64,000 bases of DNA, taken from assembly GCA_947381435.1 (NCBI GenBank), contig CANCVE010000004.1, forward strand, positions 1 through 64,000. Direction: 5' to 3'. The notes below the pieces were generated by a model. That model ran no database searches, had not been told where the DNA came from, and saw only the letters and a list, made by a program, of their open reading frames with translations. A program made the translations under genes and the position numbers. The DNA comes from Chitinophagaceae bacterium (GTDB taxonomy: Bacteria > Bacteroidota > Bacteroidia > Chitinophagales > Chitinophagaceae). Of the stretch, positions 783 to 55,700 are shown in pieces; positions within the stretch are counted from its first letter, which is position 1; every line of letters starts with the position of its first letter.

Positions 783-1045
783 AATTGTACAAAAAATCCA
801 TAGGGATCTTGCATAAAAGTATCTGGATTTTTTCAGGTTCTCTAGACATTGAAGGAAAATCCCTTTGGATTTTTTGTAAATCTCTAGACATTGGAGTAAA
901 ATCCCTCTGGATTTTTTGTAAATCTCTGGACATTGAAGGAAAATCCCTCTGGATTTTTTATAAATCTCTGGACATTTAGGAGAAATCCCTCTGGATTTTT
1001 TGTAAATCTCTAGACATTGAAGAAAAATCCATAGGAGTTTTTGCT
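783..1045. repeat. Tandem array, 42-bp unit (two diverged 21-bp halves)
   Basis: The GGATTTTTT landmark recurs at 825, 867, 909, 951 and 993, exactly 42 bp apart, with degraded units on each side. Each unit splits into two 21-bp halves that share AAATC-CT and a final ATT, so it probably arose by duplication of a 21-mer. Because 42 is a multiple of three, one frame stays open and reads a 14-residue repeat (KSLWIFCKSLDIEG). That frame lacks a good start and is probably not a gene. The array ends about 170 bp 5' of the SRPBCC gene. Confidence 0.85.
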
Positions 1046-1217
1046 GGATCCATAGGTGTTTTCACCGAAAGTGGCAGAACAGGTTATCCTTTGTTGGATG
1101 GTTTCAGTATTAGCTAGTGTCCAAACATTATTTTTTTATTAACAACCCAAAAAAATATTAACTCGAAGGCTATCTTCGTTACAGCGCCTTTATAATTAAT
1201 ATTAAATCTTTTAGAAA

Positions 1218-1634
1218 ATGGAAAAAATAAGTATCACAGTAGAAGCAACAATCAATGCCGCAGTACAAGAAGTATGGGAAAAGTGGACAACACCTGCACA
1301 CATCACTAAATGGAATGCTGCATCGGATGATTGGCATACGCCCTCTGCTGAGAATGATTTGAGAGAGGGTGGCAAATTTAGTGCAAGAATGGAAGCCAAA
1401 GATGGCAGTATGGGCTTTGATTTTGGAGGTATTTATGATACTGTTAAACCTTTTGAGTTGATTGAATATACATTGGGTGATGATAGAAAGGTGAAGATAG
1501 AATTTGAAGCGAATGGTAACGAAACTAGGGTTATAGAAACTTTTGAAGCTGAAAGTGTACACCCCGCAGAACTTCAACAAGCTGGATGGCAAGCCATTCT
1601 GAATAATTTTAAGAAATACGTAGAAGCAGTTTAA
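1218..1634 (+). CDS. SRPBCC / AHSA1-type ligand-binding protein
   Basis: The 138-residue protein opens with a beta strand (KISITVEATINA), then AAVQEVWEKWTTPAHITKW, the usual start of activator-of-Hsp90-ATPase-like START/SRPBCC domains. Strands follow with FGGIYDTVKPFELIEYTL, and the protein ends in a long helix (GWQAILNNFKKYVEAV). It covers one whole domain and has no signal peptide, so it should be cytoplasmic. The family binds hydrophobic ligands; the ligand here is unknown. It lies 22 bp before the next gene on the same strand and may be co-transcribed with it. Confidence 0.88.
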   Translation: MEKISITVEATINAAVQEVWEKWTTPAHITKWNAASDDWHTPSAENDLREGGKFSARMEAKDGSMGFDFGGIYDTVKPFELIEYTLGDDRKVKIEFEANGNETRVIETFEAESVHPAELQQAGWQAILNNFKKYVEAV

Positions 1635-1656
1635 GCCAAAACCTAAAATAGATACT

Positions 1657-2376
1657 ATGAAATTGATGAAAGTATTACCACTTTCCATTTTCCTGTTTAT
1701 ACAATATACATGTATAGATAAACTCTTTGCGCAGGATACCAATGGTAATGATAGTGCTACAATAGTTATAGAAAACGCAGTAGTAGCCATGGGAGGTAGG
1801 GAATATTTATCGAGCATAAGAACGCTTTATACCGATATGAGTGTGCAAACGGAAGGCAAGGCAATACATTGGATAAAGAAAGATATGCTACCTAATAAAA
1901 GCATATTTGAAGTGGTAAACAATGACAAAACTGTTTTTTATCAATGCTTTAATGGAGCTAAAGGTTACGAATTGCTCAACTCGAACAAGCTGGAACAAGA
2001 TGCGGAAGAACTGAAAGATAAAAAGAAACAGAAGAACATTTTTGCTGAATTGGACTATCTAAACAAAGCATTATGGACGGTAGAAATGGCTGGATACAAA
2101 AGGGTAAATGGAGAAGATTGTTATAGAATAAAAGTTTTTTCGCCAAATGGAACAATGAAGTATTTATGTTATAGCAAAAAGACATTCTTGAAACTTTCGG
2201 AAGAGGTACCCCAAAATTTAGCAAAGGAGAAATTTAAAACTACCGTGTTTGGTGGATATAAGAAATACGGAAAGTTGGTTTATTATACCACCATACAATC
2301 TGAGAATACAGCCATTGCCAGAATGGAAAAGTTATTGACAAACGAGAAAGTATCAAAAGCAGATTTCAAGGATTAG
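1657..2376 (+). CDS. Secreted LolA-like protein, unknown function
   Basis: The 239-residue product begins with a signal peptide (MKLMKVLPLSIFLFIQYTCI, then LFAQ before the mature part). The mature protein starts with a helix containing AVVAMGGREYLSSIRTL, followed by alternating strands such as VNGEDCYRIKVFSPNG and YSKKTFLKL. This pattern is typical of Bacteroidota outer-membrane lipoprotein-sorting-like proteins with a LolA/LppX fold. A periplasmic lipid-related role is possible but inferred from fold only. The stop overlaps the first base of a hairpin. Confidence 0.6.
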   Translation: MKLMKVLPLSIFLFIQYTCIDKLFAQDTNGNDSATIVIENAVVAMGGREYLSSIRTLYTDMSVQTEGKAIHWIKKDMLPNKSIFEVVNNDKTVFYQCFNGAKGYELLNSNKLEQDAEELKDKKKQKNIFAELDYLNKALWTVEMAGYKRVNGEDCYRIKVFSPNGTMKYLCYSKKTFLKLSEEVPQNLAKEKFKTTVFGGYKKYGKLVYYTTIQSENTAIARMEKLLTNEKVSKADFKD

Positions 2377-2406
2377 ATTTGTCGACCTTTAGAAAGTTGA
2401 CAAATC
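2376..2406. repeat. Palindrome, GATTTG-type family, copy 1
   Basis: GATTTGTC and GACAAATC form an 8-bp stem, extended inside by CCTTT/AAAG pairing. It begins at the last base of the preceding stop codon, so it may act as a transcript end, but no T-run follows. Two related palindromes lie at 2754-2785 and 2812-2845. Confidence 0.6.
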
Positions 2407-2423
2407 TTCGGCGTACCATCCCC

Positions 2424-2448
2424 GTTGTTGCGTCTTTTGACCAACAAC
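2424..2448. repeat. Palindrome, GTTGTTG-type family, copy 1
   Basis: GTTGTTG at 2424-2430 pairs with CAACAAC at 2442-2448. Related palindromes are at 2643-2667, 43678-43703 and 43738-43763. Confidence 0.55.
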
Positions 2449-2450
2449 AA

Positions 2451-2621: not shown

Positions 2622-2642
2622 ATAAATCCAGCCATCTTGTAC

Positions 2643-2667
2643 GATGTTGGTGAAAACACACAACATC
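2643..2667. repeat. Palindrome, GATGTTG-type family, copy 2
   Basis: GATGTTG at 2643-2649 and CAACATC at 2661-2667 pair around an 11-base loop. The same family recurs near 43.7 kb. Confidence 0.55.
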
Positions 2668-2753
2668 GGCGGTGCAATCGCTTATGTCTAGCTGTCATTC
2701 CGAATGTCTCATCTGGCGCACCAGAAAAAAATGTGAATGACTTGTGGGACTAT

Positions 2754-20352: not shown

Positions 20353-20742
20353 TATAAAATCTTTAGTAAAAGAGGTAAAAAGAACGCAAATTAGCATTCT
20401 AGTTGGTACGAATAGCAAAATATTTTCATGTTCACCTATTTCCAGCCAAATACTTTTAATTAATGAGGTTACTTGTAATTAATTAGGTAACAATTAGCAG
20501 TGAACAGTTATCAGTGAACAGTAAACAGTTATCAGTGAACAGTAAACTGTGAACAGTTATCAGTGAACAGTGAAAAGTTATCTCTGATCTATGGTAATTA
20601 ATTACTATAAAAAAAGAGAGCAATTACAGTGCATCTTTACACTAATAACTGCTCCCTAAATACTGTTAACTGCTAACTCCTATATACTGTTATCTAATAT
20701 CTAACCACTAATAACTAACCACTAATAACTAATAACTAGTAA
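20353..20742. repeat. Heptamer-type simple repeats in intergenic region
   Basis: At about 20483-20580, AGTGAAC, AGTAAAC and AGTTATC heptamers alternate in phase. At about 20696-20747, the string ACTAATAACTAACC recurs. No gene is present in these 390 bases. Similar short repeats occur at 12727-12851, 39013-39074, 40516-40573 and 48731-48800. Confidence 0.65.
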
Positions 20743-21711
20743 CTAGCCAATCGTTTCTATTTCATAAGTGGCAGGGTTTACTGCGCTAGCATTTTTTACC
20801 AATAAAAAGGTGTTATCAATATCTCCCAAACTAGATGGAACCACAATTGAAGCTTTTCCCGGTGCTACTGTACACATTAATAATGTTGGCAATCCATCGG
20901 CAGTAGCGGCTGTCCAAACTTCTATGTTGGCATTGATGCATTTGTTTCTGATGGCAATCGTTACACTATCAGTAAGAGAACGGTTGGCTACCACGGCAGT
21001 TTCATCAATTATTAGTGTATTATTATAAAACACATGTTTGCGGTGCCCAGTAGTGTAAAGCAGGTTGAAGTTGAGAAAGCCACTACATTTTACCACATCC
21101 ATAGGAAAAAGGATGGCTATTTTATGAATATCTATTGATAATGCCCTTTCTACATCTAGTACACCTTTATGTTTTCCAGTTCTGTCAGTCGATAAATCTA
21201 CAATAGATACGCCTTGGTCAGAGCGAAGCGTTTCGTATTCCGCCTGAAAACCTTGTAATTCAGTTGTTACTTCTACACCCAGTATTGCGGCATATTTGGT
21301 TGCTGCCTTGTTTACACGCTTCGTAATTATTGGCATTTCTGTACGGGAGGGGTTTGTGTAATCATATAGTTCATGTGGATAAAATTCCTTGAATGCCAGT
21401 TTATCCTTGCCACCCACCTTTTCGGCAATCACACCTTTCAGCCTACTCATGCTTTTACAGAATTTATAAACCATTACATCCACATCATCAGTTTGAGCTG
21501 TTTGAAGATTCTGCGTGGTGTCTATACCGCTCACACTATCTTCAAGCACGGCTATCAATGGTGTAAGAATTGCAATTTCTGCATCAAAAATATTTGCGAT
21601 ATTACCTTTTATCAACCTTTTTAAATGATCTTTTGCATGCAATAAAAGCCTGTCAGGCGTAATAAGTGCTGAATCATAAAAATTTCCGAATATCTTAGTT
21701 ACGTTAATCAT
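20743..21711 (-). CDS. Unrecognised cytoplasmic protein, helical N-terminus and beta-rich C-terminus
   Basis: I start at the ATG at 21711 (MINVTKIFGNFYDS), giving 322 residues; a longer frame runs on without a stop into the tandem array but only because the array lacks stops. There is no signal peptide. Residues 1-160 look like long helices (LLLHAKDHLKRLIKGNIANI, then AATKYAAILGVEVTTELQGF). The C-terminal third looks like a beta-sandwich (ANIEVWTAATADGLPTLLMC, then DIDNTFLLVKNASAVN). I do not recognise a named family. A 42-bp tandem array begins about 73 bp upstream, as for the gene at 54331-55395. Confidence 0.75.
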   Translation of the reverse strand: MINVTKIFGNFYDSALITPDRLLLHAKDHLKRLIKGNIANIFDAEIAILTPLIAVLEDSVSGIDTTQNLQTAQTDDVDVMVYKFCKSMSRLKGVIAEKVGGKDKLAFKEFYPHELYDYTNPSRTEMPIITKRVNKAATKYAAILGVEVTTELQGFQAEYETLRSDQGVSIVDLSTDRTGKHKGVLDVERALSIDIHKIAILFPMDVVKCSGFLNFNLLYTTGHRKHVFYNNTLIIDETAVVANRSLTDSVTIAIRNKCINANIEVWTAATADGLPTLLMCTVAPGKASIVVPSSLGDIDNTFLLVKNASAVNPATYEIETIG

Positions 21712-21784
21712 GTTTTTTGTATTAAATGTGTGAAAGATGGAAGGGATACTCCCTTCGTTTTTTGAATTTTCAAGCGTAAAAAAA

Positions 21785-22037
21785 GTCTTGTGCCATATCT
21801 TTTTTTTGGAAGATGCCATCCAAGACATCTTGTGCCATACCATTTTTTTGAAAGGTGCCACCCAAGAAGTCTTAAGCCATACCATTTTTTTGGTAGATGC
21901 CATCCAAGAAGTCTTGGGTCGTACCATTTTTTTGGAAGTTGGTACTCAAGAAGTCTTGAGCCATACCATTTTTTTGGAAGGTATAGTCCAAGAAGTCTTG
22001 TGCCATACCATTTCTTTTTTAGAAATGGCTGCCAATG
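21785..22037. repeat. Tandem array, exact 42-bp unit, six copies
   Basis: The TCTTG landmark occurs at 21786, 21828, 21870, 21912, 21954 and 21996 (TCTTA at 21870), each 42 bp apart. Each unit holds two related stretches about 21 bp apart (TGCCATACCA and TGCCATCCAA). Several frames stay open on both strands for lack of stops, giving 14-residue repeats that I treat as non-coding. The array lies upstream of the minus-strand gene at 20743-21711. Confidence 0.9.
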
Positions 22038-35400: not shown

Positions 35401-38400
35401 TACCTTAACTGGTGGTAGTAAAACATTCCCAGGAAATGCTGTTACTTTCCCAACCACTACAGTATCAGGAAATACACTTCCTTACATGAATAACTTAACC
35501 ATCAGTTTAAGTAGTTCAACAAATGCTATTACTTGGTCAACGCCTGGTGCAACCATGATAATAGCAGGTACTTTAACATTAACAAATGGTATTGTAACTA
35601 CTTCGTTAACTAACAACCTGTCATTGGCAAATCCTGTTACAGGTTTATCAGGAGGAAGTGCTTCATCATACATCAATGGTCCATTAGGTATAGGATACAC
35701 AGCTAGTGGTGTTACTGGTACTTATCCTATTGGGGCAGGAGGTAATTATCGCCCTGTTCAGTTTACCTATACTGCTTGTGCAACCTGTGCAACCAGTCCA
35801 AATATTGTAATTATTCAGCAAAATGAAGGTGCTTATCCTTCTATCAGTTCATCTTATAGTACAGCGCGTTTTGGTAACAGATATTATACTGTTATACAAA
35901 GTCCTGGTGCTTATCCGTATACGATGAACATTAACAATAATGGTGGTACTGCTACTGGCACAGCTAAAGCCTTTGTTTGGGAATATGATGGAAATCTTAC
36001 CTATGCAGCTAATACTAACATTACAGCAGCACCAACATCTACCTATTATGGTTTTAGTTTTTCTCCTACGGCAATTACTAATACCATTGATTATGTTGAA
36101 TTGACCGAAACTTCAATTCCGTTAACCATTACTAGTGCTGTGACTGCTAATAAAGTGTATGATGGAAACACTACCGCAACTGTTTCTGGTGCAACTTTAA
36201 GTGGTGTGGTAAGTCCAGATGCTGTTACATTGGTGCCAGTTTACAGATACAGTCAGAGTACTCCTGGTACAAGTCTGGCTATTACTAGTACTTCTTCAAT
36301 TACCGGTACTAATGCGGCAGCTTATACGCTTTCACAACCTAGCTTAACAGCTAGAGATATTAATACAGGTACTGTCGGTTCTTGGTTGGGTGTAGTAAGT
36401 ACAGATTATAATAATGTAGCAAACTGGCAGAGTTATAGTGTTCCATTAGCTTCAAGTAATGTTACCATTCCTGCTTCTGGAATCACAAACTATCCTGTTT
36501 TGGCTGGTGCTACAACGTTGAATAATTTGACCATCAACAGTGGAACATTGAGTCTCAACGGTCAAACGCTAACTGTTAATGGTACAATAAGTGGTGCAGG
36601 TACAATTACTCCAACTGCTACTTCTTCGCTAGTTATTGGTGGTACTGCGGGTACCATCAACTTTACTAGTGGAAGTAACACTATTAAAGACCTAACGCTT
36701 AATAGTAGTGCAACTGCAACTTTAGGAGGAACTACCAATATTACAGCAGGTGTTACTCCGGGTACTGTAACTATAGCAAGTGGAGCAACGCTAAATACTG
36801 GAGGAAATCTTGTAATTAAATCTGATGCATTGGGTACTGCACGCATTTCACAAAGTGCAGGTACAATATCTGGCAATGTAACAGTAGAGCGTTTCATTAC
36901 TGCAAAATCTGGTCGTAGATTTAGTTTTGTCGGTACGCCAGTTACACAGTCTGTTCGTAATGGATGGCAACAACAGATTTACATTTCTGGTCCTGGTACT
37001 GGTGGATTACCTTGCGGTAGCACAACAGGTAATGGGCAGACATCTACGGATAAGTACAATAGCAATGGTTTTGATGCTACCATTACCGGTGCAAATACTA
37101 TCTTACAATACAATGCAGCGGTTGTAAAAAGCAGTCACTATTCTGGAATTGCTAATACGGGTGTTAGTTTATCACCTGGAACCGGTTACTCTGTAAATAT
37201 TCGTGGCAATAGAAATAGTGCTACTGTAACCTGCGATAATCAATTGAATAATACTGCTCCAACAGCTCCAGAGGCTGTAACCCTAAGTGCTACTGGTACG
37301 GTAACTACTGGAAATTTAGTTGTAGCATTAAATGATAAAGCTGTTCACAACTTTACATTATTGGCAAATCCATATCCTAGTCAGATTAGTTTTCTAGCAT
37401 TTAAAGGGGATAATAGTATTATCAACAATAAAATGTGGACTTTCAGTCCATTTGGATCTGGCAACTTTACTACCCTTTCCAATGGGCACATTGTAAATGG
37501 TGCAACAGGTTATGATGATACTTATGGAAACATTATTGCAAGTGGTCAGGCGTTCTTTGTAGAAGCAAATACCAATGGTAGTGTAACATTTAGCGAATCA
37601 CATAAGGTAAGTGGTAGTCTTCCAAATACGCAATACTTTGGTATTGCACCAGAGAAGTCCATGAGGATTGGGTTCTATAGTGCCTCAACAAGATTAGATG
37701 AAATACTTCTAATCTACAATAAGCAAGGAACTAAAGATTACGATGCAAATTGGGATGCAACATCTATGAGTTTAACAAGTCAGTCATTGGTGGCCTATAA
37801 GGGTAGCAATAAATTGGCAATTGCTTATCTACCAGATTCTACTGTCGCTGATACCACACAATTAGGTGTTGCCATAAAAGCAGGTAGTTATGCATTAAAG
37901 TTCAGTCAGCTAGAAACTATTGACAGTTTGCAAACTATTACTTTAGTTGATAAGTTCTTAGGTACTTCAACAGACATTCGTAGTAATTCAACCTACAATT
38001 TCAATGTTACCACAGATACTGCAAGTAAGGGTGCAAACAGGTTTAAAGTTGTGTTGAGTGGCGCTGTTCCTTTGGCTGTAAACTTTGTAGGAATCAATGC
38101 TACACAGAATACAAATTGTGTAGCCGTTAATTGGTCAGTAGCCAATGAAGCAAAAATTGCATCTTATAGCGTTGAGAGAAGTACAGATGGTGTACACTTT
38201 ACTGCAGTAAGCAACTGCAAAGCTACAGGAGCATCAACCTACACTGTTCAAGATGCTAACCTTCCTGCAAGTGCAAATACTTTATACTACCGTGTTAAGG
38301 CAATTGACAACTTAGGTAAAGCAACTTACACCAATGTAATTGTACTTACAATTCAAGATTCACGATTCACGGGATTATCAATTTTCCCTAACCCTGTTCA

Positions 38401-38620
38401 ACGTAAGCTAAACTTAACGATTGCTGGTTCAACAAGTGGTAGTCTGTACACAGTGAAGATTACGACTGCTACTGGTAAGTTAGCATTTACTAAGTCTGCT
38501 GTTCCTGTCTCTGGAAATGCCATCACTTTCGATGCAAGTAGCTTTGCAGCAGGCGTGTACTTAATAGAATTAACGGATGCAAAGGGTAATAAACTTGTAA
38601 GTAAGTTTGTAAAAGATTAA
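23429..38620 (+). CDS. Giant secreted multidomain adhesin with T9SS type A sorting domain
   Basis: This single 5063-residue frame has an extended N-terminus and then a signal-like segment at about 43-65 (ILKSLTLLLMGMAFFVGG). Seven InlB-type B repeats lie at about 268-829 (each ends TLYAKW). Three 93-residue PKD-like repeats lie at about 1023-1300 (FAWTLGTNTGSITGA). A fibronectin-like and lectin-like region follows at about 1380-1560, then long Ser/Thr/Asn-rich filamentous repeats. YDG/MBG-type domains are near 2710-2900 and two Fn3 domains near 2902-3090. A glycine-rich stretch spans about 3125-3565, with two more InlB repeats at about 3665-3808. Two GxWxG...NW modules lie near 3810 and 4318. 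The last 80 residues are a type A sorting domain (LSIFPNPVQRKLNLTI, ending KLVSKFVKD). It is surface-exposed and probably adhesive. Confidence 0.95.
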   Translation: MVFSNANTKRTIISISAAQTASETQTVRTIEKLSKSTSILKSLTLLLMGMAFFVGGVKGQYSIAGTGSGNTYTQNFDAFRGTSATLPANWAVSSATYNATYAVLTSGAASPTVSNASGNNCYAGRSSSSSTNYCILQKQATSGSTTFTFSATNGTGSTLNGFTITWNAKQYSQAGRPTTLDFQYRINGGSYVKTGITGTTLYTATTGSSTTFSESSTSYSITITGISITANQTVDFQFVVANGGTSGSNAHLGVDDFNMYASATPTTYTLTYSGNSSTSGTAPTDASSPYSSGASITTQANSGTLAKTNYTFAGWNTATDGSGTSYAVSTASAFSMPAANTTLYAKWTYNVTYNGNSNTSGSVPTDATNYTQAAAVTTAANSGSLVRTGYAFAGWNTAADGTGTSYTASQASAFTNAGNITLYAKWSPTYTLTYSGNTNTSGTAPTDGSSPYVSGAAITTQANSGTLAKTNYTFAGWNTSADGSGTSYAVSTASAFSMPAANTTLYAKWTYNVTYNGNSNTGGTVPTDATNYTQAAAVTTAANSGSLVRTGYTFSGWNTAADGSGTSYTVSQASAFTNTGNITLYAKWTPTYTLTYSGNTNTSGTAPNDGSSPYISGASVTTAANSGTLVKTNYTFAGWNTAADGSGTSYSVSTASAFAMPSANTTLYAKWTYTVTYNGNSNTGGTVPTDATNYTQTASVTTAANSGSLVRTGYTFAGWNTLANGTGTSYSVSQASAFTNAGNITLYAKWTINSYNLSYDGNGSDGGTAVSSSSNNYNASVTLPSCTFTLTGYTFSTWNTQADGLGTDYAAGAPYSMPASATTLYAKWISAALPVCPSSTAVTPSATQTVCQGVAASLLTAAITNTGAAGSPTLLYQWYYNTTNSNTVSGATVISGATNSTYTPLSTAAEVGTRYYFCVGYATDNSCGQSNTTQSLASNTVQVTVNATPSAPTGTAAQSFCSGASPTVANLTATGSSLIWYTTAGGATVATGALVDGTTYYVSQTVSNCESSARFAVVATVNTTPSVTTANTASVCSGGTTSISLTASAASTFAWTLGTNTGSITGASASNGSSIAQALTNPSNSTAGSIVYAVTPTSTVGSCVGSATNITVTVNPTPAVTNATSASTCSGTSPSLSLTASAASTFAWTLGINTGSITGATATSGSSIAQTLTNPSNSTAGSVVYAVTPTATLGSCVGTATNVTITVNPAPSLTNSTTPSTCSGTSPALSLTASVASSFAWTLGTNTGSITGATATSGTSINQTLTNPSNSTAGSIVYTVTPTATLGSCAGTPTNVTVTVNPAPVAPTGTTPQIFCVSGTVASLSATGTGILWYAAVNGGVALSTSTALVNGTIYYASQTVGGCESSSTNSSRLAVTATITSLTAPTATAATSTTSNGFTANWGSVGCATSYALDVYTGTSSTLSEGFETGLSTSGYITGGGSLTSLASGTWTFESGGLRNATNVHSNSYSCQIKTGATNYAATTLNDCGVVTFWWFNSTPPTVKYGTTTYATTQIANTGSWYQFSCAINSIASNTLYFYNSSGATGYLDDVSMTASRTNIITGQSVVGTTYNVTGLSGSTTYNYVVRSVNGTSSVNSNVISVTTTTPSYYSKSTGNLDVLSTWGTNTDGTGTAPADFTTAGVVYNIVNNTTPTIGAAWTVSGSGAKVVVGDGTATAINFTIPSSFAYTGTIDVTANSILTLQNTIPTIGTLSATSTVVYDGGTAQNISAATYGNLTVQNSGAAKTLAGAVTLLGNTFILASGTTLTSGTNVISFNAAGGTATINGIFQTANSTGFSGGAATSISSTNTPTVTLGATSTIEYNATSTSQAITARADYYNLILTGGSSGSFLKAMGTTPTIVAGGTFTVNSTAIANFITTQMLFGGAGCTVNINGTLQTQKATGGLTGASTSVFQSTNAPTVNLGASSTIIYNGTGAQVVSANTYANLTISGTRSSTPTITLASGTITVTGTVSNAISGAVVWSNSGNTFDYASASAQTIAALFYNDLTNSGNGARTLVGTTGTIDIAGTYTPTTAAITVSTSTINFSGADGQTIPATNYYSLSSSNNARTLASTGSIIIAGTFTTGTGLYTIGTSTINFNGTTAQTIPIPAVASGSNYYNLTYSGTSTATLSGNTSIAGDISITNGILVGTSSTNRTVTATNLTMSTGTVFRMVDETSNPATGTFTLNLNGNLTINGNAELYSAYYTTVQPTGVGNINLKGNLSTVNSSGDNLYTYSTTNGTITFTGTGGSPSSTQIISFSDPTKVHYTNFSVANGAYVQLNSNVTLSAWTTPVTNQSSFTILNGGYLNMVDKTITINLTSYPSYNSNTSCFASFNLNSGGTLVTSNSNGLSTNGSVQPGSISQLTRTFSSAANYEFKGATTGVFISTPTANTVNNLTINSSGTTLSQPFIVTGTVGLTAGILTTTATNSLTLTNTANTAISGGSTSAFINGPITWTLGSTSTGTYTIPLGVTSVYYPLAFVTGTNTGSPTITAQAFTATTGSVDATLSSVSSSEYWKLVTTGSFNASSFSIAKSNLANLTTFNTIGSNTSNSSYTDIGGNAGTLSGQNGVVSSVNGLTGAGTKYLALGVISSSPNVSVSGTLTALTTTYGLPSTTTSFNVSGQNLTADVTIKPPVGFEVSTTTDFSSNIGNNSSPLVVSASGTLNSTPVYVRLLATASVGTYNGNITCSTTGAALSKSVATVNSSVTAKALSIAGLTIPASRTYDGTTFASVTGTPALATSETAGTGTSTDGNPITGDDVSLSVGSVTGTYNSANVTSATTITIGGITLAGTSAANYTLTTTASASITTAALSLTASAQSKNYGVSSSTSGTINTNYTISGLFGSDAVNVALAYSGSPAGNLATANAGTYTITPSITSFSTGTSSNYGVPSITTGTLTINGSVPSVPTVTAIIPGNNQLTINFTAGSTGGYAITNYKYSTDGGLSFKSAGTSSSPLVITVASGSAASLANGTSYDVQIKAVNSLGDGAATSTVAATPINASVPGAPTIVSATATGNSGEVAVAFVAPVSNGNATITTYTATSNPGGITGTLSQSGSGTITVTGLSNGTSYTFSVTATNVVGTGAASSSSSSTIPFIATPKISVSTAGNYTFTVPVGVTSLVIESYGAGGGGGGTGANFTLGGGGAGGSYVKHTIAVTPGTVYNYTVGSGGTAGTSAGTSGSQGGSTFFGNNTAGASSGAIILSTGGAGGGGNVTAGTSTSNWSGGVAALGGIGSISGNLPVTGAAINSAGSNGETPVGGVTKQSGAGGVSSGPDAGSAGAYRTTAGTGNSGSSPGGGASGGITQSGTSAGGKGGDGGLFISYTLPITTDILTPGITTYNFPTGVTQALIECWGSGGAGGSATGSTLYRATGGGASAGAYANKLLTVNPSTNYTVSVGASVTSSTANNAVVNGNASYFKDATTVFAEGGAGGKSVLVSNAVLLGVGGVASSSSSIGDVVYKGGNGSTSTDASNSTGSSSGGGGSGAITGIGNNATLNTGGSAGNGGAALIDANNISISGAGGTGGSSGANGGPGSAPGGGGGGAWAAASTSVRTGGAGGAGQINVNYYLVPTISGTSPTYVAAGSGSFTITATGTNFFNGISAITWGGVTLTTTYVNAYTLTATVPTANIASPGTVAIGITNTGAYGTSTSLTTQTFTINPSVTFDANTGTGSMSVQGIFANTSANLTTNTFTKIGYTFSGWATTAGGAVAYADGASYSIVTSNVTLFAKWTANTYTVAFNNNGGTGTMSNQSVTYDLPANLTSNTFTRTGYTFAGWATTSGGSVAYANGASYTTGASNVTLYAKWTGIAGNWVGTNSTSWNTSANWADGNVPSSGANVTINAGTTFPPVLDVDATVGNLVVATGTALSVGAKTLTLNGTYNAGSQLGTIAATTAGNIIFNGSAGTVYFTPTFSTFNNITVNTGATVNLVNTVSNNGTFSLTGGTLNVLAAETLGNFSISGGALNINTGVNLTFSGTYSGTGGAMTNGGTITLTGGSKTFPGNAVTFPTTTVSGNTLPYMNNLTISLSSSTNAITWSTPGATMIIAGTLTLTNGIVTTSLTNNLSLANPVTGLSGGSASSYINGPLGIGYTASGVTGTYPIGAGGNYRPVQFTYTACATCATSPNIVIIQQNEGAYPSISSSYSTARFGNRYYTVIQSPGAYPYTMNINNNGGTATGTAKAFVWEYDGNLTYAANTNITAAPTSTYYGFSFSPTAITNTIDYVELTETSIPLTITSAVTANKVYDGNTTATVSGATLSGVVSPDAVTLVPVYRYSQSTPGTSLAITSTSSITGTNAAAYTLSQPSLTARDINTGTVGSWLGVVSTDYNNVANWQSYSVPLASSNVTIPASGITNYPVLAGATTLNNLTINSGTLSLNGQTLTVNGTISGAGTITPTATSSLVIGGTAGTINFTSGSNTIKDLTLNSSATATLGGTTNITAGVTPGTVTIASGATLNTGGNLVIKSDALGTARISQSAGTISGNVTVERFITAKSGRRFSFVGTPVTQSVRNGWQQQIYISGPGTGGLPCGSTTGNGQTSTDKYNSNGFDATITGANTILQYNAAVVKSSHYSGIANTGVSLSPGTGYSVNIRGNRNSATVTCDNQLNNTAPTAPEAVTLSATGTVTTGNLVVALNDKAVHNFTLLANPYPSQISFLAFKGDNSIINNKMWTFSPFGSGNFTTLSNGHIVNGATGYDDTYGNIIASGQAFFVEANTNGSVTFSESHKVSGSLPNTQYFGIAPEKSMRIGFYSASTRLDEILLIYNKQGTKDYDANWDATSMSLTSQSLVAYKGSNKLAIAYLPDSTVADTTQLGVAIKAGSYALKFSQLETIDSLQTITLVDKFLGTSTDIRSNSTYNFNVTTDTASKGANRFKVVLSGAVPLAVNFVGINATQNTNCVAVNWSVANEAKIASYSVERSTDGVHFTAVSNCKATGASTYTVQDANLPASANTLYYRVKAIDNLGKATYTNVIVLTIQDSRFTGLSIFPNPVQRKLNLTIAGSTSGSLYTVKITTATGKLAFTKSAVPVSGNAITFDASSFAAGVYLIELTDAKGNKLVSKFVKD
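24230..25687 (+). repeat. Three 486-bp direct repeats inside the giant gene
   Basis: The string reading YTLTYSGN starts at 24230, 24716 and 25202, exactly 486 bp apart. Each unit encodes one pair of alternating InlB-type domains (YTLTYSGN type then YNVTYNGN or YTVTYNGN type). The DNA repeats differ mainly at third codon positions. Confidence 0.85.
26500..27336 (+). repeat. Three 279-bp direct repeats inside the giant gene
   Basis: The cysteine codon before SG recurs at about 26534, 26813 and 27092, 279 bp apart, giving three 93-residue PKD-like domains with AWTLG.NTGSITGA. The DNA is highly similar between units. Confidence 0.82.
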
Positions 38621-38911: not shown

Positions 38912-39074
38912 AATGTAAATTGCTATTGGTTGCTTTCATTATCTACTAAAAAATAGGAGCAATGGCTAAGATAAGTAGGGGGGTATTGAAAATGTTTGCG
39001 CTCCAAATTGTAAACTCTCATAACTCATAACTCATATCTCCTAACTCATATCAGATATCTCATAACTAACAACT
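38912..39074. repeat. Heptamer-type repeats before the permease gene end
   Basis: CTCATAA and related seven-base strings recur at about 39013-39074 directly after a short unremarkable spacer. No gene is present. Confidence 0.5.
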
Positions 39075-40352
39075 CTATTCGTATCTCAAAGCAACTATTG
39101 GGTTTAATCTAGCTGCTTTCATAGCTGGATAGATCCCTGCTGCCAAACCAACAATAGAGCAGATGATGATGCCTGAAATAACCCATGCCCAAGGAATAAC
39201 GAAGCCTGTATGGAGAAATAAACCGAATAGATTACCTACCATAACGCCGAGTATAATACCAAATAAGGCACCCAATAAGCTAATGATCATACTTTCAAAG
39301 AGAAATTGTTGGCGTATGTTGCTGCTTTTACCACCAATTGCTTTAATTAAACCAACTTCTCTGGTACGTTCATTCACAGAAACAAGCATAATGTTCATCA
39401 ATCCAATGGCTGCCCCAATCAATGTTATTAAACCAATAGCACCAGCACTTCCAGTGATGCTACTGAGGAATCCGATAAACATCTCCGCAAACTTATCACT
39501 CTTCTCAATCAAAAAATTATCTTCTTCTGTAGGTTCTAGCTTTCGTACCTTTCTAAATAGGGCGGTTGTTTCATCAATACCGCCTTCCAATGCTTGTACA
39601 CCATTTACCAAGACACCAATACTAAACGAATTTGATGGGCCACTAAATCTTGCACTGTTATTATAGGGGGTAATGATGGCCTCGTCTTGCCTAAGAAATG
39701 AGCTACTACCTTTACTTTTCAGCAAACCTATTACTCTGAAAGACATACCACCTACCAATATTATTTTATCTACACACTGTTCAGGAGTTTCATCACCAAA
39801 AAGCTTGGTGCCAATGTTGTAACCTACTAAGCAAACATTTCTACCGCTTTCTATATCGAGTGAACTAAAGTTTCTACCATTTTGAATTGTGTAGCCATTT
39901 ACACTTATATAATTTTCGTCGCCACCAAATACAGTGCCTTGTGGGTTTGTCTTCTTGTCTTTATACCTACATTCTACTCTTCCGCCCATTCTAAATGAGA
40001 TGCTGACAACAGCAGGATATTCGAAGTTGGACTTAAAAAGTAACGCTTCTTCTTTTGTGATTACTTTGCCAAGATTAGATTTCTTTTCTTTTTGTCCACG
40101 TTTTGATAATGCAATCTCCTCTCTATCATGATGTCCAAATTTAGACTTACTCTCTTTGAAACTAATGCTAAAAGCATTGGCACCCATGGAAGAAAAGCTT
40201 TCTCTTAGGCTTTGATTCATAGATTCTATTGCAGTAATTATTCCTATTAAAGCCATGATGCCAAAGGCAATGATAGCAACGGTGATGCCTGTACGAAGTC
40301 TATTGCTTTTGACTGTACGAAAGGCCAATAAAAAAGAATCAGAAATTGTCAT
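39075..40352 (-). CDS. FtsX/MacB-type ABC transporter permease
   Basis: The 425-residue protein has one N-terminal membrane segment after SFLLAFRTVKSNRLRTGITV, a MacB-like periplasmic domain at about 50-280, and three C-terminal membrane segments of the FtsX domain. The conserved VNERTREVGLIKAIGGKSSN and the terminal KAARLNPIVALRYE are typical. Such permeases work with an ATPase subunit in mechanotransmission or export; no ATPase gene is adjacent, so its partner must be elsewhere. Confidence 0.9.
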   Translation of the reverse strand: MTISDSFLLAFRTVKSNRLRTGITVAIIAFGIMALIGIITAIESMNQSLRESFSSMGANAFSISFKESKSKFGHHDREEIALSKRGQKEKKSNLGKVITKEEALLFKSNFEYPAVVSISFRMGGRVECRYKDKKTNPQGTVFGGDENYISVNGYTIQNGRNFSSLDIESGRNVCLVGYNIGTKLFGDETPEQCVDKIILVGGMSFRVIGLLKSKGSSSFLRQDEAIITPYNNSARFSGPSNSFSIGVLVNGVQALEGGIDETTALFRKVRKLEPTEEDNFLIEKSDKFAEMFIGFLSSITGSAGAIGLITLIGAAIGLMNIMLVSVNERTREVGLIKAIGGKSSNIRQQFLFESMIISLLGALFGIILGVMVGNLFGLFLHTGFVIPWAWVISGIIICSIVGLAAGIYPAMKAARLNPIVALRYE

Positions 40353-40798
40353 TCAAATGGTTATTGATGCTCAGGGATAAAGGTAGGGGGATTTGGTATT
40401 GGTCAAACATTCGGTAGTCATATCAATAGTTATTCAATAACAAATTTGTCTTGTATTCCTTATTATTTCCTGCAGTACGCTTGGTCTACATACGGCTCCA
40501 TTGATAGCATTAGGAAGTTGAAAGTAACAAGTTGTAAGTATTACGTTGTACGTGTTAAGTTATACGTATTAAGTCAAAAAGACATTTTCTTACATTTAAA
40601 GTTGCACAATATATTTTTTCAACATTTCTTACTTTCAATTATATATTTTTCCTCTATTACAAAATCAAAAGTTACAGCACTATTGTAAAATGTAGATGTT
40701 TATCATGTTAACTTTTATTATTATCTCAACAACAAGTTTTACTTTCAACTTATGACTCACGACTCCCGACGCACAACTCCCGACTTAACTAAAGTATT
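40353..40798. other. Intergenic region between divergent genes with short repeats
   Basis: These 446 bases separate the permease gene from the amidohydrolase-like gene. Repeated AAGTTGTAAGTATTACG-like strings occur at about 40516-40573, and ACTCACGACTCCCGAC at about 40750. No clear gene or terminator is visible. Confidence 0.45.
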
Positions 40799-44331: not shown

Positions 44332-44646
44332 ACTCCGACCAAAGAGAACGATACTCCGACCAAAGAGAAAGGTTCTCCGACCAAAGAGAACGATACTCCG
44401 ACAAAAGAGAACGATACTCCGACAAAAGAGAACGATTCTCCGACCAAAGAGAACGATACTCCGACTAAAGAGAAAGATCCTCCGACCAAAGAGAAAGGTT
44501 CTCCGACCAAAGAGAACGATACTCCGACAAAAGAGAAAGGTTCTCCGACACAAGAGAAAGATTCTCCGACTAAAGAGAAAGGTTCTCCGACCCAAGAGAA
44601 AGATTCTCCGACTAAAGAGAAAGATACTCCGACTAAAGAGATTAAT
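44332..44646. repeat. Tandem array, 15 exact 21-bp units
   Basis: The 315 bases divide into 15 units of 21 bp, each starting with (A/T)CTCCGAC or CCTCCGAC and containing AAAGAGAA, with variation at a few positions (for example AACGAT or AAAGGT ends). Degraded units continue to about 44715. An ATG-started frame at 44305-44649 reads a TPTKEND-type heptapeptide repeat, but it has no leader, domain or plausible start signal. The array lies 245 bp 5' of the FIST gene in a divergent intergenic region. Confidence 0.92.
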
Positions 44647-44891
44647 TGACTAAAGAATAAGACTCACAGACACAAGAGAAGTTCTGATTGACTAAAGAGT
44701 AAGACTCACAGAATAAACAGCAAAAAATACAAATATAAAAATTGCAATAGGATTCCTGTCACAATTCAGGACATTCTATTTAACTCAGAAATGCTTTTTG
44801 TTTATCTATTGTGTCGATTATATAATTATTTTTTCATTCAATAAAAACATCATAGTTTCACCACCTAAACATTACACTTAAATAAAGCTTT

Positions 44892-46022
44892 ATGAAAACA
44901 ACACAACTACACTTTATAAATGGTGCATGGCAAGATGCTTCTCCATCATTGCAAGTAGCACCACAATTGGTTTTGGCTTTTGGCGATACTGCATTGGTAG
45001 GCGATTCGGAAATATATGAATATCTGAAAGGAAAGTTCTCGAATGCAAACATTGTTTTGGCATCTACATCGGGCGAAATATTGGGTAATGAATTGTTTGA
45101 TGAAACCGTTGCTGTTACGGCCATTCAGTTTGAGAATACGGAAATTAAAGCAGTAGAAACCAACTTCTCTGAACATGAAAATAGTTTTGAAGTAGGTAAG
45201 TTTTTGATGAATGAATTACTAGCGGATGATTTAACTTCTGTATTGGTTATTTCTGATGGAGGGCTAATTAATGGTAGTGAATTGGTAAGTGGACTAAACG
45301 AAAATAAGCCAGAACATGTATTGGTTACTGGTGGGTTAGCTGGTGATGCTGCCCGCTTTAAACAAACCTTTGTAGGCTTAAATGAAGTAGGCTCTGTAGG
45401 TAAGATTGTGGCAATTGGGTTTTATGGTTCTAATATACATGTTGGGCATAGTTCTTTTGGTGGTTGGGACGAATTTGGAAGGGAACGTGTGGTAACAAAA
45501 AGCGAGAAAAATGTGTTATATGAATTGGATAACGAAAGTGCCTTGGATTTGTATAAAGAATACCTCGGTCCGTATGTAGACGAGCTACCAGGTTCGGCTT
45601 TATTATTCCCTTTGTCAATTAAAATTGATGATGAAAATATCAACTTAGTGCGTACAATATTGTCAATAGATGAAGTAGAGAAATCGATGACTTTTGCTGG
45701 AAACTTGCCGGTGGGCAGCAAAGTTCGCTTGATGAAGGCAAATTTTGATAAGCTAATCAACGCATCAACTGATGCTGCAACAGAATCCTTGATTGAGAAG
45801 AAAGCGCCAGAATTAGCCATTCTAATTAGTTGTGTAGGAAGGAAACTGGTATTGCAAGAGCGCACTGTAGAAGAGGTAGAAGCAGCTAGAAAGATATTTG
45901 GAGATGCTACTGCCATCACAGGATTCTACTCTTATGGAGAAATTTCTCCATTTAATCCAAATACTAAGTGCGAATTGCACAATCAAACAATGACAATCAC
46001 AACATTTACCGAAACAACTTAG
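44892..46022 (+). CDS. FIST domain sensory protein
   Basis: The 376-residue protein contains FIST_N at about 25-220 (LVLAFGDTALVGDSEIYEYL, NIVLASTSGEILGNELFDE, LVTGGLAGDAARFKQTFV) and FIST_C at about 225-360 (LYKEYLGPYVDELPGSALLF, ending ITGFYSYGEISPF). FIST is a predicted small-ligand sensor found with signal-transduction proteins. It is cytoplasmic and has no output domain of its own. The hybrid histidine kinase gene follows 93 bp downstream on the same strand, which suggests that the two form one sensory module. Confidence 0.92.
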   Translation: MKTTQLHFINGAWQDASPSLQVAPQLVLAFGDTALVGDSEIYEYLKGKFSNANIVLASTSGEILGNELFDETVAVTAIQFENTEIKAVETNFSEHENSFEVGKFLMNELLADDLTSVLVISDGGLINGSELVSGLNENKPEHVLVTGGLAGDAARFKQTFVGLNEVGSVGKIVAIGFYGSNIHVGHSSFGGWDEFGRERVVTKSEKNVLYELDNESALDLYKEYLGPYVDELPGSALLFPLSIKIDDENINLVRTILSIDEVEKSMTFAGNLPVGSKVRLMKANFDKLINASTDAATESLIEKKAPELAILISCVGRKLVLQERTVEEVEAARKIFGDATAITGFYSYGEISPFNPNTKCELHNQTMTITTFTETT

Positions 46023-47817: not shown

Positions 47818-48729
47818 ATGATGAATACAATTCCCCCATATCTACAGCAAGGCGACACCATTGGAATAGTTTGTCCCTCGGGATATTTGCCTTATAACAA
47901 TGCAGAAACTTGTATTGCGACTTTAAAACAATGGGGGTTTAAGGTTAAAGTGGGTAAAACCTTGGGCAATCAATTTAACTACTTTTCGGGTACCGATGAA
48001 GAAAGATTAGCCGACTTGCAATCTATGCTTGATGATAAAACTCTAAAAGCAATACTGTGTGGTAGAGGTGGGTATGGACTTAGTAGGATTATTGATTCCA
48101 TGAACTTTGAATCTTTCATTCAATACCCCAAATGGATAATTGGGTTTAGCGATATAACTATTCTTCATGCCCACATTAATAAACATTTTGGAATAGCAAC
48201 TATGCACGCCCCAATGGCTGCTGCTTTTAATGATAGAGGCTTTGAAAACGAATATGTACAATCATTGAAGCAAGTGTTAGTAGGTGAAGAAATTAGCTAC
48301 TCTTGCGCTGCACATCCGCTAAATAAAACGGGGAATGCACAAGGAGAGCTCATTGGAGGAAACCTAACTATTATTGCTCACTTGATTGGCTCAAATTCAG
48401 GGTATGATACTACCAGAAAGATTCTTTTCATGGAAGACATTGGAGAATATCTATACAATATAGATCGTTTATTTATTCAACTAAAAAGAAGTGGTCTATT
48501 ACATAATCTTGCTGCATTAGTGATTGGTGGATTCACTGACATGAAAGATACCATCATTCCTTATGGCAGTGATGTATATTCTATCATTCATGAACACCTT
48601 TCAAGTTATGATTATCCAGTTTGCTTTGGTTTCCCTGTAGGTCATCAAACCAATAATTACGCATTAAAAGTAGGAGGCGTATATCAGTTGAGTGTAACAG
48701 ACAATGAAGTGGTTCTTAAAGAAAGATAG
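47818..48729 (+). CDS. LD-carboxypeptidase (peptidase family S66)
   Basis: The 303-residue protein starts with the family pattern LQQGDTIGIVCPSGYLP, then ILCGRGGYGLSRIID. The catalytic serine is in WIIGFSDITILHAHI. The catalytic glutamate region follows (GNLTIIAHLIGS, then FMEDIGEYLYNIDRLF). The C-terminal histidine is in CFGFPVGHQTNNYALKVG. S66 enzymes cleave the L-lysyl/diaminopimelyl-D-alanine bond of murein tetrapeptides during cell-wall recycling. No signal peptide is present, so it is cytoplasmic. Starts at 47818 or 47821 are equally possible. Confidence 0.92.
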   Translation: MMNTIPPYLQQGDTIGIVCPSGYLPYNNAETCIATLKQWGFKVKVGKTLGNQFNYFSGTDEERLADLQSMLDDKTLKAILCGRGGYGLSRIIDSMNFESFIQYPKWIIGFSDITILHAHINKHFGIATMHAPMAAAFNDRGFENEYVQSLKQVLVGEEISYSCAAHPLNKTGNAQGELIGGNLTIIAHLIGSNSGYDTTRKILFMEDIGEYLYNIDRLFIQLKRSGLLHNLAALVIGGFTDMKDTIIPYGSDVYSIIHEHLSSYDYPVCFGFPVGHQTNNYALKVGGVYQLSVTDNEVVLKER

Positions 48730-48747
48730 TAGATATTAGTTAGTGGA

Positions 48748-48803
48748 TATTAGTTAGGAGATATTATTTGTACACGACACAATTAATATCTCCTATCTAA
48801 TAT
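48748..48803. terminator. Foldback between converging genes
   Basis: TTAGGAGATATTA pairs with TAATATCTCCTA between the LD-carboxypeptidase and GH43 genes. There is no clean T-run, and the arms are heptamer-type repeat DNA, so a terminator role is tentative. Confidence 0.45.
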
Positions 48804-53138: not shown

Positions 53139-54224
53139 ATGCAATATGCAAATAAGTTACTCAAAATATTGTATTCAGTTCAGGCCACTGGCAATGGGCA
53201 CATAGCTAGGGCTATGCAACTATTACCTTACTTACAACAGTATGGCGAAGTAGATGTGTTTTTGAGTGGAAGCAATAGCAACCTCAATGCTGCCTTGCCC
53301 ATAAAATATAGGAGCAAAGGATTGAGTTTGTTTTATGGCAATAGGGGAGGACTCGATTACCTAAAGATGTGGAAGGAATTGAGCATTAGCAGGATATGGA
53401 AGGAAGCCCATGAGTTGCCCGTAGAGCACTATGATTTAGTGATTAATGATTTTGAAAGTATAACCTCACTTGCTTGTAAGATAAAGAAGGTAAAGAGCAT
53501 TAATTTTGGTCACCAGGCAAGTTTTCTTTCTAGTAATACTCCAACACCCGCCAAGAGAGACCTCATTGGCGAATGGATACTGAAACATTATGCTACTGCT
53601 AGCGCTAATGTGGGGCTACATTTTGAGAGTTATGATGATTTTATTTACTCTCCCATCATCAAGGACAATATTATAAAGGCACAACCAACCAATATAGGGC
53701 ATGTATCTGTTTATTTGTCGCATTATAGTGATGAGGTAGTGGTAAATGCACTTAAGGCTTGTGCAGATATTCCTTTTCAGGTGTTTTCTAAGAAGGTTAC
53801 TAATGCCGAGCAAAAAGGAAATGTTACCTTACTGCCTATTAGCAATGAAGGGTTTAATAATAGTATGATTAATGCCGCAGGTGTAATTACTGGAGCTGGT
53901 TTCGAGACTCCTGCAGAGGCTTTGTATCTGGGAAAAAAGCTGATGTGTTTACCTATCAAGGGGCAATACGAGCAGTTGTGTAATGCAGCCGCACTAGAAA
54001 GATTCAGGGTGCCGATAGTAGATAAAATTGATGGTAAATTTGGTAACAACATCTATCAATGGCTTTCTGGGATGCATCCTAAGCCTTTGGAGCTTACAAA
54101 GTCTACCCAACAAATAGTTGATATAGTAATAGAGAAAGGATTAGCCCAAAAAGGTGTGGATCAATCAGCAAATAAATACGGCCTTGCCCAACATCATTAC
54201 CCAGATAATCTTTCGTTGGCATAG
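53139..54224 (+). CDS. GT-B type glycosyltransferase
   Basis: The 361-residue protein begins with the sugar-acceptor loop ILYSVQATGNGHIARAMQLL, typical of GT-B glycosyltransferases related to MurG and UDP-glucosyltransferases (PF13528). The C-terminal half carries the donor-binding pattern MINAAGVITGAGFETPAEAL, then LCLPIKGQYEQLCNAAALER-like residues. It is probably cytoplasmic and peripheral to the membrane. Tight linkage to the LpxH-like phosphatase gene suggests a role in glycolipid or lipopolysaccharide synthesis, which is inference. Confidence 0.82.
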   Translation: MQYANKLLKILYSVQATGNGHIARAMQLLPYLQQYGEVDVFLSGSNSNLNAALPIKYRSKGLSLFYGNRGGLDYLKMWKELSISRIWKEAHELPVEHYDLVINDFESITSLACKIKKVKSINFGHQASFLSSNTPTPAKRDLIGEWILKHYATASANVGLHFESYDDFIYSPIIKDNIIKAQPTNIGHVSVYLSHYSDEVVVNALKACADIPFQVFSKKVTNAEQKGNVTLLPISNEGFNNSMINAAGVITGAGFETPAEALYLGKKLMCLPIKGQYEQLCNAAALERFRVPIVDKIDGKFGNNIYQWLSGMHPKPLELTKSTQQIVDIVIEKGLAQKGVDQSANKYGLAQHHYPDNLSLA

Positions 54225-54262
54225 TTGTTTTTGCTGATGAATGACAATATTATACTATTATG

Positions 54263-54301
54263 AAAAAGTCCTCAATACTTTTGCAGTAATGAGGGCTTTT
54301 T
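54263..54301. terminator. Terminator between converging genes
   Basis: AAAAAGTCCTCA pairs with TGAGGGCTTTTT around a 15-base loop, 38 bp after the glycosyltransferase stop. It also faces the minus-strand gene at 54331-55395. Confidence 0.82.
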
Positions 54302-54330
54302 GTATGTTTCTTATAGCTGATTAATTGCCA

Positions 54331-55395
54331 TTAAACTGTCCCACTTTCAGGTACTATTTCTACCACAACCTCGGTTGCAAGCTTTGCGGCTGCTTTTGCT
54401 TCCTTTCTTACTTTAGCTTTTGCTGCAATAATGGCTTTTTCGTCGGCAATGGCTTGAGCGAGCGTTACTTTTAGGGCAGTTTCCTGTTCTGGCGTCATTA
54501 CACCGGGTATAAGGTTTACAAAAAAGGAATTCTTTTTACCACGTACTATATCTACTGCTACTATTTTGGTAAGGAAGCCGGGCTTTTTAAAGGTTCCAAT
54601 TGCTGAACCCGCCATTACGGTAGTATATTGTAGCACACCTCCCACATTGCTGACCAATACCTCTTTTGATTTTGACAATGTACATTCTACACCCGCTAAT
54701 ACTCCCCCTGTTTCTGTACTAGAAATATTGAAGATTACCGGCGTGTGAAGCACTGTGATAGCAGGAATTTTACAAGCCTTAATTAATAGGTTATAGAATG
54801 TGCTATTTGTTTTCTTGTACTTCTTAGCAAGCAACTTTACCGTTAGCACATTTTCGTTCATCACCTTCATGGTGTCTTCGAACTTCTTTGTAACAACGCT
54901 TGAGCCACCATTTACTAGGTTTGAGGAGCTTGTAAGACCTGTGTACTTGGTTATTGAGGTTAAAAAAGTGGCCAATTGTGCGGCTGTAATATAATCGACT
55001 GTTATAAGTGCTAAGTTATCGTGCATTGTATTGTATGCACTCATTAACCGGCTGCCACAAAGTGCATCAGATTTTGAGAAATAGTAAGATACTGTACCAT
55101 GCAAAGACTTAGACAATATTAGGTTCTTATCCAAATTTAATTTCACTATGCAGCTAGCACTTAATTCGGCTGCTATGGCGCAGGAGTTGATTTTTGCTAT
55201 CATTTTTTCGGCACTATAGCCTGTATTATCAGCGGCTGCTTCGATAGATGCCTCAATGGACAATTCATTGTCGGCTCGGACTTTTATTGCCAAGGCAATA
55301 AAGGCAGGATTATCTGCATACTCAGCTTCTTTATCATTTATAAACGTTACCAAGGAATCATTTCTTGTTCTTCTTGCTTGCAATGCATTTTTCAT
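54331..55395 (-). CDS. Unrecognised protein, helical bundle plus beta-sandwich
   Basis: I start at the ATG at 55395 (MKNALQARRTRNDSLVTFIN), giving 354 residues; the nearby upstream start is TTG. There is no signal peptide. Residues 1-210 look like a long-helix bundle (AFIALAIKVRADNELSIEAS, then FLTSITKYTGLTSSSN). Residues 225-310 look like a carboxypeptidase-regulatory-like beta-sandwich (GGVLAGVECTLSKSKEVLVS, then AIGTFKKPGFLTKIVAVDI). An Ala/Lys-rich helix ends the protein. I know no name for it. Size, layout and the upstream 42-bp array parallel the gene at 20743-21711, though the sequences are not obviously homologous. Confidence 0.78.
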   Translation of the reverse strand: MKNALQARRTRNDSLVTFINDKEAEYADNPAFIALAIKVRADNELSIEASIEAAADNTGYSAEKMIAKINSCAIAAELSASCIVKLNLDKNLILSKSLHGTVSYYFSKSDALCGSRLMSAYNTMHDNLALITVDYITAAQLATFLTSITKYTGLTSSSNLVNGGSSVVTKKFEDTMKVMNENVLTVKLLAKKYKKTNSTFYNLLIKACKIPAITVLHTPVIFNISSTETGGVLAGVECTLSKSKEVLVSNVGGVLQYTTVMAGSAIGTFKKPGFLTKIVAVDIVRGKKNSFFVNLIPGVMTPEQETALKVTLAQAIADEKAIIAAKAKVRKEAKAAAKLATEVVVEIVPESGTV

Positions 55396-55462
55396 TTTTT
55401 TCAATTTTAAGTATGATTAACTAATTTTTAAACCCTTTTTTCACTCCATTTTCAATTATGCT

Positions 55463-55700
55463 TACAGATGTGTGTTTTATGCCGTATGATTGATCAAATA
55501 CCTTGTATGATTAATGTTTTATTCCGTATGATTAGTCAAATACCTTGTATGATTAGTGTTTTATCTTGTATGATTAGTCAAATACTTTGTATGATTAGAG
55601 TTTTATTCCGTATGATTAGTTAAATACCTAGTATGATTAGTGTTTTATCTTGTATGATTAATCAAATACCTTGTATGATTAGTGTTTTATGCGTTCATGA
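55463..55700. repeat. Tandem array, 21-bp units in alternating A/B pairs (42 bp)
   Basis: GTATGATT occurs at 55484, 55505, 55526, 55547, 55568, 55589, 55610, 55631, 55652 and 55673, exactly 21 bp apart. Two unit types alternate: one continues AGTCAAATACCTT, the other AGTGTTTTAT, so the higher-order period is 42 bp. Degraded units flank both ends. It starts about 68 bp upstream of the minus-strand gene at 54331-55395. Confidence 0.93.

Follow-up and report, generated by a model that had tools for sequence, protein, structure and literature searches.

Cis elements are normally found through sequence conservation. Phased direct repeats of about two helical turns are known as iterons upstream of rep genes and as parC/parS centromere arrays upstream of adaptor genes, and the heptameric STRR repeats of cyanobacteria form short intergenic tandem arrays. 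Here, we analyzed a 64,000-bp stretch of the genome of a Chitinophagaceae bacterium (GenBank assembly GCA_947381435.1, contig CANCVE010000004.1, positions 1 to 64,000), hereafter the window (G000:C4:1-64000, where G, C, and L codes denote genomes, contigs, and cut loci), in which four tandem arrays of unrelated sequence share a period of 21 or 42 bp, and we followed this class of arrays through the host genome and its relatives. A full-text literature search, with most subscription papers and bioRxiv outside its reach, returned only two papers that come near such a system. According to the first, Porphyromonas gingivalis carries BrickBuilt (23-bp) and MITE464/PgRS (41-bp) direct repeats that are sequence-unrelated, intergenic, and dispersed, with 22-bp repeats mentioned too and up to approximately 20 copies of each element, and each type has one unit sequence with a leader, a tail, and IS5-like terminal inverted repeats (PMC4596501). 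The second contains a remark on intergenic tandem repeats in lake Planctomycetota (PMC9426551).

The arrays studied here resemble BrickBuilt and PgRS in being intergenic minisatellites of Bacteroidota with two-turn or four-turn unit lengths; they differ in forming dozens of unit families within a quarter of one genome, in rarely having inverted termini, and in being tied to orphan gene families. Like iterons and centromere arrays, they are phased repeats of about two turns that adjoin the gene of a protein of approximately 300 residues. A difference is that the two orphan protein families next to them in the window, A1 and A2, reach the cutoff of no Pfam or NCBIfam model, and that 17 chromosomal copies have different arrays. 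Searches of Pfam, NCBIfam, and PHROG, and of PDB for A2, did not identify the neighboring gene as encoding a Rep or a ParR/ParB-type DNA-binding protein. The likeness to cyanobacterial STRR repeats lies in the short intergenic tandem arrays, and arrays of 7/14 bp are present in the host genome as well; the 21/42-bp arrays, however, lack 7-bp substructure.

Tandem repeats were called with Tandem Repeats Finder (TRF) in the window and 60 further stretches of the host genome, together 1,258,469 bp or 26% of a genome of 4.88 Mb in 231 contigs, and regions were merged. Among the 223 merged regions, 102 were at least 90 bp long, and 87 of these had a base period of 21 (52 regions), 22 (7), 41 (11), 42 (14), or 43 bp (3), one array that is split by a stretch boundary (L067/L068) entering the 87 twice. 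An equal-size first-order Markov null yielded 5 regions, the longest of 42 bp. In the same-genus genome G005 (793,214 bp), 48 of 57 regions fell into the same period classes, and in the 159 regions of both genomes pooled, the base period was 20-22 bp in 91, 40-44 bp in 44, and other in 23, with none at 15-19 bp and one at 23-39 bp. Further same-genus stretches (238 kb) listed 10 arrays, among which L024 and L093 look like a single array in two records and L153 sits amid heptamer arrays. The 32 loci from other genera (296 kb, or approximately 274 kb once approximately 22 kb counted twice are removed) contained no arrays, where approximately 19 would be expected at host density, and 50 kb of Escherichia coli gave one 48-bp repeat of 21-bp period and none of 90 bp. 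The earlier note on this window had claimed that unrelated arrays share one period and had looked to the TRF period distribution of the genome and its relatives for a sharp excess at 21 and 42 bp; this excess is present in both genomes, in the host far above the Markov null, and supports a common period beyond chance. As for location, 78 of the 87 host arrays lie outside called genes, and the other 9 lie in low-scoring open reading frames (ORFs) mostly made of array or, for array 2 of the window, in an N-terminal extension of a real gene. The orientation of the gaps with arrays (28 divergent, 30 tandem, and 11 convergent) did not differ clearly from that of long gaps in general (68, 126, and 37 of 231).

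What the earlier note missed, and what is new relative to it, is the coupling of the arrays to orphan gene families, with 41/42-bp arrays at one family and mostly 21-bp arrays at others. The former is A2, a family of approximately 320-residue proteins, whose alignment was made from six members picked for having arrays in front and is weak, with 16-19% identity to the window copy. The A2 model gave 19 matches in the host genome with E values down to 1e-127, 17 of which were examined. An array was present within 600 bp upstream in all 13 host copies for which 300 bp or more upstream were available, and within 700 bp in 24 of the 25 non-host copies with at least 400 bp (from 27 non-host loci cut, in nine other genomes); the farthest non-host array, 83 bp long, was at 564 bp, and the single miss (L264) had a 118-bp-period repeat instead. 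In total, a 41/42-bp array was found upstream of 37/38 A2 copies in 10 genomes, or 31/32 without the six seed genes, and downstream of 0/40 (0/13 host, 0/27 non-host); an additional copy, in L147, has a 42-bp array just upstream. As background, of 229 host genes preceded by a gap of 350 bp or more, 63 had any array and 30 had a 40-44-bp array within 600 bp. The 37 counted arrays had a base period of 41 (16 arrays) or 42 bp (21 arrays), a median length of 231 bp, and a median distance of 163 bp from the gene. That nearly every examined A2 copy has a private array suggests a DNA element in which spacing is preserved more than sequence.

Position and period are thus kept at A2, and the letters often are not. 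Array likeness was detected in 10 of the 666 pairs among the 37 A2 modules, all 10 keeping their orientation to the gene, and it was confined to related proteins, with 0/555 pairs below 250 bits and 10/111 above. By protein identity, the arrays were alike in 2/7 pairs at 80-90%, the other 5 having no detectable array similarity, in 4/15 at 70-80%, and in 0/7 at 60-70%; 23 of 32 protein pairs of at least 400 bits, up to 85% identical, showed no detectable array similarity. This indicates that the letters of the array fade before those of the protein while the period stays. A2 matches occur in 11 of 13 genomes of the genus and, across the order, in 26 of the 298 genomes sampled (12 of 141 genera), the host included in both; most genus members have 9 to 19 matches per genome to the orphan families, and no A2 match was found on plasmids. 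Neither A1 nor A2 matched a Pfam or NCBIfam family at the curated cutoff or a PHROG family at the curated or E 0.001 level. The predicted fold of A2 consists of a long helical part to approximately residue 218 followed by a C-terminal beta domain (mean predicted local distance difference test score, pLDDT, 79; predicted template modeling score, pTM, 0.46), and no PDB match was obtained for this model at E 0.001. Several A2 copies are cut by contig ends (C60, C73, C16, C29, and C116), as though the assembly had failed at the parts they share.

Almost every A2 copy is coupled to an array, but only some of the A1 copies are. In A1, a family of approximately 357-residue proteins, an array lies within 600 bp upstream of 3/6 host copies and upstream of 8/13 genus copies, 7 of these 8 arrays having a base period of 21 bp; none was found downstream of 16 genus copies. 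Three other families had an array within 450 bp, namely F223 (5/6), F206 (6/7), and F229 (3/3), with corresponding counts of 2/3, 4/5, and 1/1 among members not picked for their arrays. Confidence in the A1 model is low (pTM 0.36), and only its C-terminal part gave matches, of transthyretin or carboxypeptidase-regulatory-like type. Many arrays front other genes, including FIST, AHSA1, and plainly housekeeping genes, with less constancy. Two observations on A1 stand apart: the G010 paralogs in L178 and L185 have alike units in opposite orientation approximately 525 bp upstream, unlike the same-orientation rule at A2, and C-terminal pieces of A1 are cut by contig ends in C49, C212, C128, and C140.

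Using blastn, we grouped the 135 host and G005 arrays into 76 families, including 46 singletons and 10 that span both species. Mean similarity between the 45 families with a 21-bp consensus equaled that of shuffled sequences (10.11 versus 10.08), with slightly more look-alike pairs than expected in the tail (13 versus 5.1 pairs with at least 14/21 matches), and no 5-, 6-, or 7-mer was shared among families above the shuffled maxima. Array bodies are dispersed, and similar copies within the host genome lose their similarity no more than 60 bp from the edge of the array at 75 of 90 ends (45 pairs, one of them being two halves of one split array). Together with the diverged copies of the window arrays elsewhere in the genome, these data bear out the suggestion of a class of elements that has spread and diversified. 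Comparison of 82 syntenic gene pairs between the host and G005 revealed 74 without an array, 5 with an array in both, and 3 with an array in the host only. Four of the five shared-gap arrays are homologous; the fifth gap contains unrelated arrays of 21/42 and 41/82 bp in the two species (L084:10959-11153 versus L134:8773-9068), and a second syntenic gap with unrelated arrays was seen between L173 and the window. One of the three host-only cases has a decayed G005 array, and the syntenic gap comparison revealed no clean empty site. Concerted change was clear in two of four ortholog pairs (L062/L198 and window array 4 versus G003; in one example, identity was 0.87 and 0.82 within arrays and 0.64 between them) and unclear in L066/L209; L051/L193 showed none, its orthologs resembling each other more closely than its units do.

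Within arrays, identity by lag peaked at 21, 42, 63, 84, 105, and 126 bp, and also at 41, 82, and 123 bp, and lags of 7, 10, 11, and 14 gave no signal, so that a 10.5-bp substructure was set aside. Units of 21 bp that are 2, 4, or 6 apart were more alike (0.83-0.85) than those 1, 3, or 5 apart (0.79-0.80), which suggests that a 42-bp pair often serves as the working unit. The units abut without the unique spacers of a clustered regularly interspaced short palindromic repeat (CRISPR) array. We also estimated curvature with a wedge model, in which lower values mean more bend and natural intergenic units tiled at equal period served as controls. Among the periods tried, exact repeats bent most at 21 bp (0.857), then at 32 (0.896) and 22 bp (0.898). 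Under this model, the arrays were more curved than array-free intergenic DNA, and the 36 A2 arrays analyzed scored 0.890 against 0.918 (standard deviation, 0.011) for the tiled control, with 0/40 control sets reaching the A2 value.

We tentatively favor the view that the arrays are upstream DNA modules that keep their period of two or four helical turns, their position no more than approximately 0.6 kb ahead of a gene start, and the similarity among their units, while their letters drift or are replaced, and that their in-phase repetition is used in expression of the downstream gene. Repetition in phase would bend the DNA before the gene coherently or give it a periodic face for binding, and this bend or face may then be used in downstream gene expression; exchange within the array would keep its units alike, and solitary arrays before other genes would be offshoots that may or may not work. 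Extended to the genus, and just as tentatively, this may be a lineage-specific cis system in which each member of several hypervariable orphan families has a private phased array read by its period rather than its sequence, the gene family sets the period class (41/42 bp for A2 and mostly 21 bp for A1, F206, and F223), and solitary copies arise from array bodies that bud off. Annotation that relies on sequence would miss such an element, whose letters are replaced over time while its position and spacing persist. If its role is confirmed, it would allow a direct test of whether selection in a bacterial chromosome can act on nothing but the shape or phase of DNA, and it would open a first way into orphan protein families widespread in the genus. 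Several results weigh against this view. Taken together, all 116 arrays bend no more than their period gives (0.884 versus 0.890 for the tiled control; standard deviation, 0.008), and only 23 of 36 A2 arrays beat the median of their own control; a role in DNA curvature, as raised in the earlier note, gains weak backing from the comparison with array-free DNA and from the A2 arrays, and none from the arrays as a whole. Three-turn periods of 31-32 bp are almost absent, although the wedge model bends 32 bp well. The Bacteroidota promoter motif is not enriched beside A2 arrays (5 sites versus 4.4), and an array was seen in only 3 of 10 genomes within 1.5 kb around the FIST gene. A matching or degenerate array is present in the other species at 5 of the 8 syntenic gaps with a host array, so turnover is not universal, and in all three A2 pairs above 90% protein identity, the arrays are alike (96%; two at 74-77%). 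Finally, inverted repeats are enriched, reaching p≤0.05 in 17/87 host, 9/23 G005, and 14/37 A2 arrays versus 19/400 random genomic 21/42-mers (100 shuffles), and the conserved positions within the 21-bp unit cluster together (z of 4.8 at lag 1 and 3.1 at lag 2 in 38 families), which together hint at sequence-specific recognition.

Such recognition would be expected if the hypervariable orphan protein, or a partner, bound the cognate array in dimeric form, whether for autoregulation or as a mark of the locus, with array and protein changing together and solitary arrays acting as wider targets. We place this cognate binding behind a period-bound upstream element, as a less likely reading: private arrays at 37/38 A2 copies, host A2 proteins only 12-19% identical to the window copy, arrays that are alike solely where proteins are alike, and the inverted repeats are all in its favor, but the arrays change faster than the proteins, as the 23/32 dissimilar pairs attest, compensatory change in stems is weak (11 versus 6.2 expected, by RNA or dyad covariation), unrelated housekeeping genes are fronted by arrays too, and the helical bundle and beta domain predicted for these proteins, with low pTM values, gave no confident DNA-binding match. 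Ranking third, and somewhat less probable again, is a selfish or mutational origin, in which a minisatellite-like element or copying in two-turn steps makes and spreads the arrays and the link to genes reflects sites of birth or tolerance. The dispersed bodies whose homology stops at their edges fit this origin, as do the peak at 21 bp among non-heptameric repeats shorter than 90 bp (19/54) and the likeness of units, which declines neither with distance inside the array nor toward its edges (0.84 to 0.81 to the consensus). A tandem direct-repeat core with dispersed intergenic copies is what a minisatellite-core miniature inverted-repeat transposable element would have; terminal inverted repeats, however, are lacking in most arrays, an inverted-flank score of at least 24 being reached in 9/131 versus 1.3 expected, a small excess, and this origin does not predict the upstream-only placement at A2 or the dependence of the period class on the gene family. 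It is unlikely that the array is a transcribed 5' leader acting in RNA, for example, on translation or stability. For 9 of the 37 A2 arrays, only 34-61 bp lie between the array end and the ATG, which is not enough room for a separate promoter, and the inverted repeats would suit a leader, but other A2 arrays are 200-564 bp away, the stems show little compensatory change, and Rfam detected only a tRNA in the window. Least probable by far is that codon constraint or heptamer repeats account for the period. Both 21 and 42 can be divided by 3 and by 7, and separate 7/14-bp arrays exist in the host genome, yet open frames in the host and G005 arrays occurred at the unit-permuted expectation (84/105 versus 84.0 for periods divisible by 3; 8/30 versus 6.0 for the others), from which it follows that translation does not explain the period; 30/135 periods are not divisible by 3, lags 7 and 14 are at background, and no host array exceeds an identity of 0.45 at either. 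The possibility, raised at the outset, that the arrays are translated and owe their period to codons was thereby rejected, as was a heptamer origin.

In the window, all four arrays, none of which is assigned a strand, were found where the earlier note had placed them or within a few bases. Array 1 (core 839-1030, with diverged caps out to 783-1045) has a 42-bp unit with faint 21-bp halves, and the gene of an AHSA1-type protein (1218..1634, plus strand; PF08327, E 2e-23) starts 187 bp past its TRF end at 1030. Array 2 (21783..22018; P42) has a 42-bp unit and begins 71 bp upstream of the start of the A2 gene (20743..21711, minus strand). The note had seen traces of 21-bp halves in both 42-bp arrays; they are measurable in array 1 (lag-21 identity, 0.51), as in array 4, and not in array 2, whose lag-21 identity of 0.22 is at chance level. 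Array 3 (44332..44717) has a 21-bp unit in 14.8 copies to 44641 and a decayed tail to 44717, and a FIST-domain protein gene (44892..46022, plus strand; FIST, E 3.6e-39; FIST_C, E 3.6e-35) starts 250 bp past it. In array 4 (55472 to about 55690-55722; P42/84), each unit consists of two 21-bp halves; the array begins 67 bp upstream of the ORF of the A1 gene (54331..55404, minus strand). When inverted and overlapping matches at one place were counted as one, diverged copies elsewhere in the host genome were found at two places for array 1 (C53 and C125), three for array 2 (C19, C52, and C69), and three for array 4 (C56, C92, and C195), and matches at seven other places for array 3. Caps are common to copies of array 1 and of array 4, as judged by eye.

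Other repeats were noted in passing. Separate 7/14-bp arrays with ACTAATA-like and CAGTGAA-like units are present in the window at 20498-20578, 20694-20749, 39016-39075, 40529-40574, and 48727-48766; in the sampled genome, such arrays avoid divergent gaps (2/54 placed) and sit near gene ends. Interspersed CCTTTGTGTTCCTTGTGG-like repeats with an internal period of approximately 21 bp occur at L033:9051-9179, L036:9318-9357, and L044:10816-10855. A 116-bp dispersed repeat starting AGGATTCATAGGAACATAGATCACATAGG is doubled at 60867-61102 of the window and found again near 55958. Lastly, positions 23429-38620 form one ORF of 5063 codons with internal repeats, a 486-bp unit present three times (24225-25680) and a 279-bp unit (26570-27336).

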